Below are positions 4,617 through 54,359 of a stretch of 64,000 bases of DNA, piece after piece; the stretch's first letter is position 1; every line of letters begins with the position of its first letter. Under the pieces are notes generated by a model. The model saw nothing but the letters and a program-made list of their open reading frames with translations, searched no databases and was not told the origin of the DNA. The stretch is from contig OZ020489.1 in assembly GCA_963971405.1 (NCBI GenBank), positions 37,667,047 through 37,731,046 of the forward strand. The letters run 5' to 3'. Source of the DNA: Psococerastis gibbosa. Lineage: Eukaryota; Arthropoda; Insecta; Psocodea; Psocidae. The translations under genes and the position numbers were made by a program.

Positions 4617-4750
4617 GGCGGCTATTCCACTTGTCAATAATCCGTCATTTGTGCTTCAATAATTGCGATTTTTTTACTCTATATAAAAACAAAAATCTCA
4701 TCAATTATTGATGCACAAATGACTGAATAATGACAAGTGGATTTGCCGCC
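4617..4750. mobile_element. Fold-back MITE flanked by TA (134 bp)
   Basis: Inverted arms of about 50 bp begin GGCGGCTATTCCACTTGTC on the left and end GACAAGTGGATTTGCCGCC on the right. Both sides are flanked by TA (4615-4616 and 4751-4752), consistent with a Tc1/mariner-type target site. Confidence 0.75.
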
Positions 4751-5105: not shown

Positions 5106-5485
5106 GGCGCCCATTCCATTGACCGGCTAGGGCTATTTCCAAAAACAGTGACGTGGTAGCAGACATTCAAGACTGAGGTTGCGTTTCCACCGATCTCGCA
5201 TTGCAGAATGCAAATGACATTGACGGAAATTAGAATTTTTCTTTTTATAGAAATCTATTAAAATGTTTGTACTTAACATATCCCATGACGCCATTTTTTA
5301 ATTTTAGTTTGTTTATGATTTTACTGTATGATCATTGATCAATTTTAACTATGGCATAGAGGAAAATAAACATTTCCGTCAATTCTGCAATGTGAGGTCG
5401 GTAGAAACGCCACCTAAGTCTTGAATGTCTGCTACCACGTCACCGTTGTTGGAAATAGCCCTAGCCGGTCAATGGAAAGGGCACC
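5106..5485. mobile_element. Composite fold-back element CF, copy 1
   Basis: Arms of about 105 bp begin GGCGCCCATTCCATTGACC and contain 'gacgtggtagcagacattc' and 'ctcgcattgcagaatg'. Between the arms lies a unique AT-rich core with 'tcatgacgccattttttaa'. Other copies are at 16657-17049, 17366-17749, 45807-46190 and 53976-54359. The flanks here (TGA/ATA) are degraded; in other copies they are a 3-bp TAA or TTA, the target of PIF/Harbinger transposases. Confidence 0.85.
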
Positions 5486-16656: not shown

Positions 16657-17049
16657 GGCGTGGTTTCCACCGACCGGCTAGGGCTAAATACAAATACGGT
16701 GACGTGGTAACAGACATTCAAGACTTAGGCGGGGTTTCCATCGACCTTGCATTGCAGAATGCAAATGACATTGACGGAAATTAGAATTTTTCTTTTTATA
16801 GAAATCTATTAAAATGTTTGTACTTAACATATCTCATGACGCCATTTTTTAATTTTAGTTAGTTTGTTTGTGATTTTACTCTATGATCATTGATCAATTT
16901 TAACTATGCATAGAGTAAAACAAACATTTCCGTCAATGTCATTTGCATTTTGCAATGCGAGGTCGGTGGAATGCCCGCCTAAGTCTTGAATGTCTGCTAC
17001 CACGTCACCGTATTTGTATTTAGCCCTAGCCCGTCGGTGGAAACCCCGC
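16657..17049. mobile_element. Composite fold-back element CF, copy 2
   Basis: Same core and arms as copy 1, but both tips read GGCGTGG/GCGGGG plus TTTCCACCGACC instead of GGCGCCCATTCC. The outer tip therefore resembles the module normally seen at the inner junction. The flanks share TTTAA (left 16652-16656, right 17050-17054). Confidence 0.8.
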
Positions 17050-17365
17050 TTTAAATCCATGGTTATATTGTGTTTTGTAGTTGTGGGCAAGTGTGAGAAG
17101 CCTCCTAAGAATGAATGAGTAAGTAAGTTATTATGTTACCCCCTAAGTTAATAAGTTGTCCCCTAAGTAATTTATTAATAATAAATGAAGAGAATAAAAT
17201 TTTATTTTATTTGATGTACGGTACTATGTATAGGCCGTTTTTGGACTTTGTATGTTGGCAACACATTATAAGCTTATTTATATATTATGCTGTTCCGTAA
17301 GCTTATATGTTGTGCTGACAATTGTCCTATATGGCATAATAATTATTCACTTTGAACAGCTCTAA

Positions 17366-17749
17366 GGCGCCCATTCCACCGACCGGCTAGGGCTATTTAC
17401 AAAAACAGTGATGTGGTAGTAGACATTCAAGACTTAGGCCGGGTTTCCATCGACTTCGCATTGCAGAATTGACGGAAATGTTTATTTTCCTCTATGCCAT
17501 AGTTAAAATTGATCAATGATCATACAGTAAAAACACAAACAAACAAACTAAAATTAAAAAATGGCGTCATGGGATATGTTAAGTACAAACATTTTAATAG
17601 ATTTCTATAAAAAGAAAAATTCTAATTTCCGTCAATGTCATTTGCATTCTGCAATGCGAGGTCAGTGGAAACCCCGCCTAAGTCTTGAATGTCTGCTACC
17701 ACGTCACCGTTTTTGTAAATAGCTCTAGCCGGTCGGTGGAATGGGCGCC
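17366..17749. mobile_element. Composite fold-back element CF, copy 3
   Basis: 384 bp with ends GGCGCCCATTCCACC and GGTGGAATGGGCGCC. A perfect TAA duplication flanks it (17363-17365 and 17750-17752). It is in opposite orientation to copies 1 and 5, judged from the core. Confidence 0.9.
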
Positions 17750-17827
17750 TAAAGGTGACACATGTGCACCAGTGTACCTATGGCCTACTGTCATCAATGT
17801 GCGTCATTGTTAGCCAATCAGAGCGCT

Positions 17828-18375: not shown

Positions 18376-18520
18376 TCCTAAGTACCATAATACGTTTCCC
18401 CTTTGCCTATGGCCAATGGCTTCAAGAAAAACTTTTTAATCATTTTATAGCTATTTCAAAGTTCCCGCAATCAGTAAACTTTGCTCAATTTTTTTTTTAA
18501 AGGAACATTAAAAAGATTTC

Positions 18521-19401
18521 AGATGGACTTGAATGCTATTACAGTTAATAATGCAAGTTAAAAAATGTTGTTGATGAGCATTATCTAATCCTCGTCGCTA
18601 GCGGAAAAAGATCATTAATATTATAATAGTAATTAATTTAATATCCCAACATCCTCAATAATTTTATTTCAGATGGAACTGAATGCTATTACAGTTAATG
18701 CAAGTTAAAAAATGTTGTTGATGAGCATTATCTAATCCTCGTCGCTAGCGGAAAAAGATCATTAATATTATAATAGTAATTAATTTAATATCCCAACATC
18801 CTCAATAATTTTATTTCAGATGGAACTGAATGCTATTACAGTTAATGCAAGTTAAAAAATGTTGTTGATGAGCATTATCTAATCCTCGTCGCTAGCGGAA
18901 AAAGATCATTAATATTATAATAGTAATTAATTTAATATCCCAACATCCTCAATAATTTTATTTCAGATGGAACTGAATGCTATTACAGTTAATGCAAGTT
19001 AAAAAATGTTGTTGATGAGCATTATCTAATCCTCGTCGCTAGCGGAAAAAGATCATTAATATTATAATAGTAATTAATTTAATATCCCAACATCCTCAAT
19101 AATTTTATTTCAGATGGAACTGAATGCTATTACAGTTAATGCAAGTTAAAAAATGTTGTTGATGAGCATTATCTAATCCTCGTCGCTAGCGGAAAAAGAT
19201 CATTAATATTATAATAGTAATTAATTTAATATCCCAACATCCTCAATAATTTTATTTCAGATGGAACTGAATGCTATTACAGTTAATGCAAGTTAAAAAA
19301 TGTTGTTGATGAGCATTATCTAATCCTCGTCGCTAGCGGAAAAAGATCATTAATATTATAATAGTAATTAATTTAATATCCCAACATCCTCAATAATTTT
19401 A
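18521..19401 (+). repeat. 147-bp satellite, six units
   Basis: Units start at 18521, 18671, 18818, 18965, 19112 and 19259. The first is 150 bp (an extra AAT and a few substitutions). The next four appear identical at 147 bp and the last is cut at its 3' end. Each repeat junction reads 'ataattttatttcag' followed by ATGGAACTGAATGCTATTAC, that is a splice-acceptor-like site, an ATG and an 11-codon frame ending TAA. The unit also contains 'cctcgtcgctagcgg'. The near-identity points to very recent expansion or gene conversion. Confidence 0.95.
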
Positions 19402-20269
19402 AAATGTCATTATCGATAGAAATCAGAATTTTATAATTTTCTTCCAGCTCCTAACTTTCAACGCACCCTATCTTTCTATTAAAACTGTATTTATTTAACA
19501 ACTAGTAAACATTTTATCTCGATTTTGTTCACGTTAGTCGTCATCAACGTTCTTTCCCATTAATCTCTGTTAAGGAAGATTAACATTATTTAAGTTTAAT
19601 ATAGTCTGTTATGTGGCATTAATGGGGGATTATTAGCAACTATTACAGTAAAACTACTTATCCCAACGTGTTTAACAAGTTTAGCAAAAACTGACAAGTT
19701 TATTGATGCGTTGTTTTATATAGTCTACTATTCATCGTAAACACCACATCATAACAAAAACAGGGGGATTTCTCAATACAAAGCTGCATTATCAGATTAT
19801 TGTTCCGACATGAATTAAAGCTATAAAATAGCAGATGCAAACACGAACTTGTTCTCATTAATATTTTAGCTTACCACAATAGGTTTACAGAGAGCGTGAG
19901 AGAAGATTCATAATTTATCGGGCTACAGCCGGGGTGAAAATTAATTTTCGCGAGGTAGAAACTTCATATTTTGAGTGTAGCACTTCAAATCAGGGAAATT
20001 GAATACGACATTTTGATTAAATTCGCACTGAATCATATATACACTACGTAACGAATGGGAACGTTGAATTCCACATAGGGGTGAACAAACATTTTCAATT
20101 TCCCGCCAAGACAAATAAGTCCTTAATAAATATTCCAATTTTGGCGATCTATCTGAAGATTGCCATGATGAATTCAGTTTTTTTTTTAAAATTCAAGTAG
20201 GCTAGTTGATGTTAATAACCCTAACACATTTGATTCTTCAAGAGCTAGCTTACTTTTACGCCGTCTTAT
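19402..20269. other. AT-rich, nothing recognised
   Basis: No repeat, RNA or coding signal could be supported over this 868-bp stretch. Confidence 0.45.
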
Positions 20270-24346: not shown

Positions 24347-24476
24347 GGCGGGGTTCCCACATACGTCAATGGTCAATGAGAAATGTGAAATTGACGTTTT
24401 AGCAGACATTAAAGACATACTAAAAATTCTGCTACCACGTCAAAACCATATTTACCATTGATGTGGAAACCCCACC
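24347..24476. mobile_element. Small fold-back MITE (130 bp), TAT flanks
   Basis: The ends are GGCGGGGTTCCCACATACG and GATGTGGAAACCCCACC, with TAT on both sides. The centre has 'agcagacattaaagac' and 'tctgctaccacgtcaaaac'. It is the same family as 50149-50290 and shares the 'gctaccacgtca' motif with the composite element arms. Confidence 0.8.
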
Positions 24477-47503: not shown

Positions 47504-47772
47504 GAAATTCCATTACTCAGTCAACCAATTTCTTTATAGCAATCCAGAATTCCTGTCACCAACTCTTACTAATTTTTCGTAAATTAATGTAATCTTATCT
47601 TGTTACTGTTTGTATTGATTTCATGCCATGTTCTTGTAAAAGCCTCGAACCGAACGGTGTCTAATTTTTTTATTTGAAAAAAAAAACTCCAACCTGTGTT
47701 AAAACCTCTCTGAAACCCGCAATGAAAAGAAATCAATTATCGGCCACGTCCTTGTGCCCCCTCCCAACAAGC

Positions 47773-48018
47773 AACGTCTTCAGCAGCAGCGTCTTCAACA
47801 GCATCGTCTTCAACTGCAGCGTCTTCAACAGCAGCGTCTTCAACAGCAGTGCCTTCAACAGCAGCGTCTTCAACAGCAGCGTCTTCAACAGCAGCGTCTT
47901 CAACAGCATCGTCTTCAACTGCAGCGTCTTCAACAGCAGCGTCTTCAACAGTAGCGGCTTCAACAGCAGCGTCTTCAACAGCAGCGTCTTCAACTGCAGC
48001 GTCTTCAACAGCAGCGTC
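47773..48018 (+). repeat. 15-bp minisatellite, about 16 units
   Basis: Unit GTCTTCAACAGCAGC with a few variants. Because 15 is divisible by three and the unit lacks stops, most frames are open: NSSVF, QQRLQ and TAASS repeats on the plus strand and VEDAA or LLLKT repeats on the minus strand. A 155-codon frame (47674-48141) spans it, but nothing outside the array resembles a known protein. Substitutions change amino acids as readily as they stay silent, so I treat it as a non-coding minisatellite. Confidence 0.85.
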
Positions 48019-49182
48019 GTCGTCTACTTCCGGCGGACCCATCGAGCAACAAATTCGTACCTTCACAACTCTGTGGTTCGACTGGTGCGACACGACCCCG
48101 TAACTCGCGATCGTATGTATAACCTCCGAAGCTGTGGCTAACCCTCATAGTTTCTACAATGAATATATATTATCTTTAACTGTATTTTAATCTAAGAAAA
48201 CTCACACTATTACCAATATTTTTTTCCAGAATGCATCATGGGCTACGGCCTAACTGTCCAAATTTGTAATGATATATGCTACTAGGTTTCCTTGATTTCG
48301 CCGCGGGCAGAGGACTGAAATGACGTTGAATTATACCTACCAATTAAGCCGCTTACCACTCAATCTTGACCTGAATATCCATTAGATTGACAAATTATCC
48401 ATTACAACCACTCACATGGGCTGCCCCCCTCCCCCATATACACGCCATAGGTGAGGCCTAAAGGTTGGTAACTCCCCAAAACTAAAAGCTCAGACTTGGA
48501 AAATGGAGGAATTCACACGTATATTTATTTCTTTTGTACAAGTCGTTACGAATTATCCAATTCCAATACAAATTCTATTGTATATATTTTATGTTTTTAA
48601 GATAGCGGATAGCGAGGTATAGGGATTACGTGCCGATTTCTGGGTTCATTGTAGAAATGCGGGCAATGACGCCCAAAGGCAAATTCCGATAGAAGCTCAG
48701 ATTTCCAAAATGGAGGAAATCTGAGTTTAATTTCTTTCGGTGTATTAGTCTTTAAACCTCTTCCGCGGTTCTATTCCAATATGAAGGCAGCCAAATGTTA
48801 AGTGACCTTTTGTCCCAATTTCAGGCGGTCAAACCGTCAGGGGAATTTGTCTTACCGAAAGGGTTCGGCGCGTAAGATCCCTCGGAAAATCGTGCTCTGA
48901 ATTTCGCAAAGTTGACTTATCTTGAGATTTTAATAGAGAAAGGCGCTTCATCATTTTAATCGCTGAGCTGTAGAGGTAACCTTTTTAATACAAGTTAAGT
49001 TCACGTGTCCTATGCTTAAGACCTGTCTTTATATAAAAGGTTGAGTTGGGTTCCCGTGCTATTCATAAGCGTATAAGCATATGATTACAACTACAGGACT
49101 TGAGCAGCTCCTTCCTTGTAATTTTTCCTAACTTTTTTTGTAGTCTATTTGTAAATGTTAATGGCAATGGTGTAATACTATT
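48019..49182. other. No gene; short direct repeat
   Basis: 48484-48535 and 48693-48742 share 'agctcaga' followed by 'aaaatggaggaa' and a 'tttatttcttt' stretch about 209 bp apart. Otherwise nothing is recognised. Confidence 0.4.
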
Positions 49183-50148: not shown

Positions 50149-50290
50149 GGCGGGGTTTCCACATACGTCAATGGTCAATGGTAAATGTGGTATTGACGTT
50201 TTAGCAGACATTAAGGACATACTAAAAATGTCTGCTACCACGTCAAAACCATATTTACCATTGACCATTGACGTATGTGGAAACCCCGCC
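50149..50290. mobile_element. Small fold-back MITE (142 bp)
   Basis: Nearly perfect inverted ends GGCGGGGTTTCCACATACG of more than 40 bp. The centre has 'agcagacattaaggac' and 'tctgctaccacgtcaaaac'. Preceded by TAA and followed by TTA. Same family as 24347-24476. Confidence 0.85.
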
Positions 50291-53975: not shown

Positions 53976-54359
53976 GGCGCCCATTCCATTGACCGGCTAG
54001 GGCTATTTCCAACAACGGTGACGTGGTAGCAGACATTCAAGACTTAGGTAACGTTTCCACCGACCTCGCATTGCAGATTGCAAATGACATTGACGGAAAT
54101 GTTTGTTTTTCTTTTTATAGAAATCTATTAAAATATTTGTAATTAACATATCCCATGAAGCCATTTTTTAATTTTAGTTTGTTTGTTTGTGATTTTACTG
54201 TATGATCATTGATCAATTTTAACTATGGCATAGAGGAAAATAAACATTTCCGTCAATTCTGCAATGCGAGGTCGGTGGAGACGCCACCTAAGCCTTGAAT
54301 GTCTGCTACCACGTTACCGTGGTTGGAAATAGCCCTAGCCGGACAATGGAATGGGCACC
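53976..54359. mobile_element. Composite fold-back element CF, copy 5
   Basis: 384 bp with ends GGCGCCCATTCCATTGACC and GGACAATGGAATGGGCACC. Perfect TTA duplication (53973-53975 and 54360-54362). Inserted in an R-D fragment. Confidence 0.92.

Follow-up and report, generated by a model that had tools for sequence, protein, structure and literature searches.

A nested fold-back element in Psococerastis gibbosa, probably formed by insertion of one MITE into the centre of another and amplified as a unit

The window, a stretch of 64,000 nucleotides of Psococerastis gibbosa DNA (C14:37667047-37731046), contains five copies of a composite fold-back element, including copy 2, the end of which is now set at position 17050. 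These copies and two small stand-alone MITEs of the same tip-sharing clan are located as follows.

5106..5485, minus strand: composite copy 1, 380 bp; flanks TGA/ATA (plus strand), decayed
16657..17050, minus strand: composite copy 2, 394 bp; outer tips GGCGTGG/AGCGGGG-TTTCC; flanks TAA/TTA (plus strand)
17366..17749, plus strand: composite copy 3, 384 bp; flanks TAA/TAA
45807..46190, plus strand: composite copy 4, 384 bp; flanks TAA/TTA
53976..54359, minus strand: composite copy 5, 384 bp; flanks TTA/TTA (plus strand)
24347..24476, no strand assigned: stand-alone small clan MITE, 130 bp; flanks TAT/TAT
50149..50290, no strand assigned: stand-alone small clan MITE, 142 bp; flanks TAA/TTA

Copy 3 consists of an outer arm of 68 nt, TTA, an inner element of 242 bp, TAA, and a second outer arm of 68 nt.

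17363..17365, plus strand: left target site duplication (TSD), TAA
17366..17433, plus strand: left arm of the outer MITE; tip GGCGCCCATTCCACCGACC, then a centre half of the ...GACATTCAAGAC type; related to the stand-alone MITE S described below
17434..17436, plus strand: left internal junction, TTA (TTA in 44 of 44 aligned copies); putative secondary copy of the right arm
17437..17678, plus strand: inner MITE, 242 bp; tips GGCCGGGTTTCCAT / GGCGGGGTTTCCAC; core A+T-rich; stand-alone copies at loci L087 and L095
17679..17681, plus strand: right internal junction, TAA; putative original TSD side; same right side at locus L105
17682..17749, plus strand: right arm of the outer MITE
17750..17752, plus strand: right TSD, TAA

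An earlier note on this DNA had described arms of two modules each, with a length of 384 bp for copies 3, 4, and 5 and 380 bp for copy 1, and alignment within the window bears this out. The two arms of each window copy are 91-94% complementary. The tip GGCGGGGTTTCCAC occurs 17 times in the window at ≤3 mismatches, against 3.25 expected, and none of 100 shuffles reached 17. The inner module had been said to start at CTTA| with a terminus of the clan type; the junction stands, whereas a single uniform inner tip does not, as the tip reads GGCGGGG, GGCCGGG, GGTGGCG, GGTTGCG, or GGTAACG depending on the copy. In copy 2, the inner and outer tips are nearly identical over 19 bp (GGCGGGGTTTCCACCGACC). 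Copy 2 had been proposed as an exchanged form, which it probably is not: its GGGGTTTCC-type outer tip is common to composite L090 and to several elements with one inner and one outer end (half-composites, described below), which suggests an older lineage.

The outer module had been likened to the small MITEs at 24347 and 50149, and both do carry the same tip and GCTACCACGTCA. A further stand-alone clan MITE, additional to those listed in the earlier note, lies at 4617-4750 (tips GGCGGCTATTCCACTTGTC / GGCGGCAAATCCACTTGTC, flanks ATA/TAA). Across the window and two 100-kb blocks, we accepted 14 further clan MITEs of 102-226 bp with tips GGCGnnnnnTCCAC; by our own reading, 3-bp flanks are equal in seven of these (four TWA, three TAT), in a pair search that favoured TWA. 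Positions 5-9 of the clan tip differ by subfamily, and the two tips of an element mostly agree, with the exception of L084 (GGCGCCGATTCC at one end, GGCGGGGATTCC at the other). One clan MITE on C1 (L051:4113-4929; C1:30.0341-30.0349 Mb; tips GGCGCCCATTCCACATACG / GGTGCCCATTCCACATGCG; flanks TTA/TTA) has been entered by a composite, and its interior is 81% like part of the composite core over 144 nt. A 766-bp element on the same contig (L055:9306-10000 and L056:1-71; C1:30.0793-30.0801 Mb) has clan-like tips and TAA/TAA flanks, and contains an extended internal inverted repeat along with sequence that looks foreign.

The window also holds repeats of other kinds. A tandem array with a 147-bp period spans 18402-19436, where six overlapping 300-nt windows gave four matches at 100% (including the reference) and others at 91% and 68%; an array of a 15-bp unit at 47725-48069 gave 16 overlapping matches. 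At eight places between 13686 and 56078, C runs are followed by GAAAAAAAATCCTGGCTACGGCCTTG-like sequence (61-100% alike over 44 nt), and these sites are perhaps a dispersed repeat family.

The searched genome comprises 409 Mb in 68 contigs; this size, like the retroelement-like ORFs, is in keeping with a eukaryote. The exact internal junction GACATTCAAGACTTAGGYGGSGTTTCCA had 10,001 genome matches (4958 + 5043) and its control had none, which excludes chance; since an element can hold up to two junctions, the genome contains at least about 5,000 elements. Two arbitrary 100-kb blocks contained two full composites and one half-composite, and a search of viral contigs with two exact patterns gave no matches. 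From a genome similarity search in which the best 40 of 2262 candidates were scored, a sample biased to young copies, we aligned 39 copies (the fortieth was copy 3) together with the five window copies. The consensus of these 44 copies is 384 bp long, and 35 of the copies have exactly this length. Over nearly all of it the consensus pairs with itself when folded (-236 kcal/mol, RNA parameters). Divergence from the consensus is 0.8-2.9% for the genome-fetched copies and 2.6-7.8% for the window copies. The internal junction pair is TTA/TAA in 40/44.

Identical 3-bp flanks were found in 22 of the 44 copies (TAA 13, TTA 7, GTA 1, TAC 1), whereas permutation of the right flanks gave a mean of 12.9 (p=0.0005); when only the 28 copies flanked left and right by TWA are considered, the left-right association is weaker but still there (Fisher one-sided p=0.04). 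TAA/TAA or TTA/TTA flanks thus account for 20/44 copies, mixed flanks, one TAA and one TTA, for 8/44, and decayed or unclear flanks for 14/44. Within the window, copies 3 and 5 are the only ones to keep exact 3-bp duplications. These figures support two proposals of the earlier note, that the composite moves as one unit and that it targets TWA. One composite, at C1:30.0345 Mb, lies inside another MITE and reads GAGTAT|composite|TAAAATTG, where the related core has GAGTAAAA; its target was probably TAA plus one later change.

TWA-targeting MITE behaviour is well supported, and TSD and tip together indicate that the enzyme was most likely of the PIF/Harbinger group. A terminal inverted repeat (TIR) starting with GG is typical of Harbinger, and most copies have GGCG or GGTG tips beside the 3-bp TWA duplications. 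The piggyBac and Kolobok families make a 4-bp TTAA duplication, whereas 4-bp flank identity occurs in 3/44 copies here. Two PHIS groups, as described in an excerpt of PMC4482050, are NuwaII (C|TNA|G) and ISL2EU (AT). Among the 22 copies with exact TSDs, C on the left and G on the right occur together in one and either occurs in 14; C is the commonest base at -4 (17/44), and the internal junction and the 50149 element read C...G. Rather than a 2-bp AT duplication within AATT, the flanks are TWA 3-mers, and the two end-adjacent bases agree in 3/44. The flanks agree less well with NuwaII, ISL2EU, and TTAA-type families than with PIF/Harbinger. Separately, a YqaJ-domain ORF (L051:8462-9034, plus strand; E=6.9e-14) faces a DDE_Tnp_4 ORF (L052:2373-3524, minus strand; E=5.6e-37) about 3 kb away at C1:30.038-30.044 Mb, with a small MITE between them. 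Related transposase genes are therefore present in the genome; the pair was considered as the autonomous parent and set aside, as no clan-type ends were identified on it.

Both modules have relatives that stand alone. Exact inner tips without A at -5 numbered 208, and among the 100 listed we read 20 regions with 21 tips, chosen from the tips lacking the CTTA context. The 21 tips belong to two stand-alone inner elements, seven half-composites, six full composites whose junction is altered, two composites with a broken right side, and four truncated elements. The stand-alone inner elements are 253 bp long and are flanked by TTA/TTA (L087) and TAA/TTA (L095), so the inner module that the earlier note had suggested looking for does exist on its own. 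In a tree of inner sequences, poorly resolved and with too short an outgroup, L087 and L095 do not fall clearly outside the composites.

For the outer module, the results depend on which centre is sought. A palindromic centre joining both arms (AAGACTTAAGTCTT) had no genome matches at ≤3 mismatches, which rules it out as the pre-insertion state. Exact outer arms with 0-25 bases between them occur at four places, none of which is a clean empty centre: three keep inner-tip remnants and one has a short scar (TTGGGC). By themselves, these outcomes spoke against the nested reading of the earlier note. A search with DNA of the joined outer arms gave no full-length match among the best 40 of 343 candidates, only half matches of 72-74 nt. 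Ten such joined-arm loci were read: one is a solo arm, and nine are composites in which the difference at the inner tip end is a changed base, not extra TSD bases. With a 38-nt pattern that runs from the outer half-arm into TTATTAATG, there were 424 matches at ≤3 mismatches; among the 100 listed, none has 0 mismatches, one has 1, and the others have 2, so that an uninterrupted outer MITE whose arms equal those of the 384-bp form (ACGGTGACG) is absent at 0 mismatches from the matches listed. These include near matches at C1:1548577 and C3:43550285, and several derive from a variant with ATTAAAG.

A sister of the outer module does have an unbroken centre. Outer-arm continuations gave 202 matches (controls 1 and 1), and 70 of the 100 listed, counted by eye, run on as TTAATGATATCTGCTACC or a close variant and carry no inner element. 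Two of these loci, L102 (flanks AAA/TAA) and L103 (TTA/TAA), are complete 140-bp MITEs that we call S; the flanks are equal in neither. The S centre is asymmetric, reading ATTAA-TAA-GTC, or GATATCATTAA-TAA-GTCTTGAATGTC on the opposite strand, and its half ...GTAGCAGACATTCAAGACTTA is common to S and the 384-bp form. S links the two modules: over its first 49 nt it matches the inner arm at 94%, and over its first 72 nt it is an 81% match to copy 2's outer arm.

Insertion into a centre like that of S would give inner|TAAGTCTTGAATG on the right side, which is present in the composites, and ATTAATAA|inner on the left side, which is absent from the 384-bp form. The predicted unsymmetrised left junction had eight matches on seven contigs (seven ATTAATAAAGG, one ATTATAAAGG; control 0). 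All eight have an extra A before the inner tip (TAAA|GG), which we interpret as a founder mutation. Two of the eight loci were read, L104 and L105. The left side of L104 is as in L105 and its right side is lost; L105 is intact on both sides and reads TAA|outer left arm...GCAGATATCATTAATAAA|inner|TAAGTCTTGAATGTCTGC...outer right arm|TTA. Its centre, outer-left...ATTAATAAA|inner|TAAGTCTTGAATG...outer-right, has TAA on both sides of the inner element and one extra A.

These sequences support an insertion that hit TAA in ATTAATAAGTC, in an outer donor whose relatives have an asymmetric centre. The proposal that one MITE inserted into the centre of another thus holds in its first part, through L087 and L095, S, and L105, and changes in its second: the point of entry would be TAA in an asymmetric centre, not a TTA centre. 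The expected outer module with an unbroken centre was likewise found in part, as the sister S and as an older cousin that already carries the insert. Given the S centre, the unsymmetrised junctions, and L105, we regard the TTA|inner|TAA mirror junction found in the 384-bp form as probably secondary: the right half of the centre would have been copied, in inverted orientation, over the left half. The likely route to this symmetry would be conversion of one arm by the other in an element that can form a hairpin. Two stand-alone MITEs, at C13:20.016 Mb and C13:20.039 Mb, show a similar symmetrisation that used the other half: their arms read GACATCATTAATAAGTCTCT on both sides (one mismatch in one of four arms).

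The same loci bear on a simpler origin, in which the 384-bp unit is a single element whose long TIR has a duplicated tip, the junction lies within the TIR of a single autonomous parent, and no second MITE took part. The near identity of the two tips of copy 2 fits such a duplication, as does the failure to find the exact unbroken outer module, either as the palindromic centre or among the best 40 of 343 joined-arm candidates. However, each module has a stand-alone relative with a full MITE layout (L087 and L095 for the inner module, S for the outer centre), and L105 has the structure of an S-like MITE interrupted at TAA, with this triplet on either side of the insert, which a tip duplication does not predict. 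We regard this origin as highly improbable.

Elements with one inner and one outer end number eight (L083, L088, L094+, L096, L098, L100, L101, and a copy at C1:30.0604 Mb). By our own reading, core polarity is four each way. Their outer tips are GGGGTTTCC- or GGGGATTCC-like and not GCCCATTCC as in young copies. Equal 3-bp flanks occur in seven of the eight (Fisher one-sided p=0.07), seven of the eight having been selected for TWA at the inner-tip flank; L100 and the C1 copy have decayed outer tips whose ends could be placed only to within a base, and the end of L096 was read by eye. In three (L088, L098, and L101) the flanks are TAA/TAA, whereas the full-composite junction on that side is TTA. 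A related locus, L077/L081 (C20:7.719 Mb), is a solo outer arm of 71 nt including the junction TTA, which reads TTA|arm|TTA and then continues into unrelated DNA.

The sizes of these forms, 253 bp for L087 and L095, 324 bp for L088 and L094+, and 394 bp for copy 2, rise in steps of 70-71 nt. Stepwise growth, in which an inner element gains one outer arm and then a second by copying, with the full composite arising last, would produce such a series, and it would also accommodate the half-composite outer tips that differ from those of young copies. Yet L105 possesses both outer arms while its centre is still unsymmetrised, and half-composites occur in both core polarities. On this evidence, stepwise growth seems improbable.

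Half-composites and the solo arm could instead derive from full composites by deletion or recombination. At locus L075, a deletion has removed 71 bp between the inner-tip and the outer-tip GGTCGGTGG, and inner-tip remnants at three of the four exact-arm places indicate that internal deletions of the inner element exist. A deletion from the TTA of the target duplication to the junction TTA would leave a TTA-flanked half-composite or the L077/L081 arm, with no transposase needed. Such a deletion does not yield the TAA/TAA half-composites, however, and the equal flanks in seven of eight argue in the same direction, at a level that is suggestive only (p=0.07). We consider this derivation rather unlikely, and transposition with mixed ends the likely explanation; the ends of the inner element may still be usable. 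The solo arm also fits an excision of the inner element with the other arm that left one TSD, as far as its structure goes, and a TTA-to-TTA deletion would look alike. For mPing, the part of a report drawn on here gives precise excision in 109 of 110 cases, with one TSD copy left (PMC2836001).

Mixed ends would be accommodated if a single transposase recognised both outer and inner tips. One nested insertion could then give rise to full composites, half-composites of either polarity, inner elements alone, and solo-arm scars, while arm copying would turn the asymmetric nest into a perfect fold-back that was then amplified. We put forward this broader reading tentatively, at somewhat below an even chance, because deletion between TTA repeats could also give the solo arm and the TTA-flanked half-composites.

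Overall, we think it quite probable that the 384-bp unit arose in five steps as a nested DNA transposon of the non-autonomous kind. An inner MITE of ~250 bp entered the TAA of the GATATCATTAA|TAA|GTCTTGAATGTC centre of an outer MITE of ~140 bp, a step shown at a single locus, L105, by comparison with the empty centre of S, both MITEs being of one clan with tip GGCGnnnnnTCCAC and 3-bp TWA duplications. The nest then transposed as a unit, as the eight loci with the same junction show. In one lineage, the inverted right half would have overwritten the left centre half to give CTTA|inner|TAAG. This symmetrical form was amplified to thousands of copies, the best-matching of which are 1-3% from the consensus. 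The inner tips would have remained functional, which would allow pairing of an inner with an outer end and movement of a half-composite, a mechanism suggested by the pattern of ends and flanks.

The origins of MITE arms and subterminal sequences are poorly known, and this genome contains several stages at once: an empty MITE related to the host, the host carrying its guest, thousands of symmetrised nests, and half-nests between flanking duplications. Their coexistence opens two questions to testing, namely if a single transposase can act on mixed ends and if the symmetry of a fold-back promotes its amplification. If true, interchangeable ends together with arm copying would be a general route ("TIR accretion") to new, longer MITE arms.

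Among the entries listed by our literature searches, which covered arm homogenisation as well as MITEs of nested, composite, or chimeric structure, none describes a tip-sharing guest and host with filled, symmetrised, and half forms together, a result that holds for these searches only. The tip strings themselves occur in eight papers, all with titles on other subjects. Composite MITEs as such are already known, as excerpts on two of them indicate. AgaP2-P12MITE of Anopheles is a composite MITE with two ends from two subfamilies (PMC1562414), and the half-composites likewise pair ends of two kinds; AgaP2-P12MITE belongs to the P elements, however, and its description, in the part consulted, contains no nest with full and half forms. 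With NuwaII and ISL2EU, as excerpted, the elements share TNA-like flanks and GG tips, and the facing DDE_Tnp_4 and YqaJ ORFs on C1 are as described for ISL2EU, but C..G surrounds the TSD in 1/22 exact cases and the TSD is 3-bp, not 2-bp AT. The elements also resemble PIF/Harbinger Tourist-type MITEs such as mPing, which are short, have a GG tip and a 3-bp TWA duplication, and reach high copy number; unlike these, the composite consists of two nested MITEs that move together, has long near-perfect arms, and occurs in forms with one inner and one outer end. In MER6, according to the available portion of its description, a SINE inserted into a MITE and the composite then spread (PMC6887750). The course proposed here is alike in that an insertion into a MITE was followed by amplification of the composite; whereas the guest in MER6 is a retroelement, here guest and host share tips, so the parts may move too.
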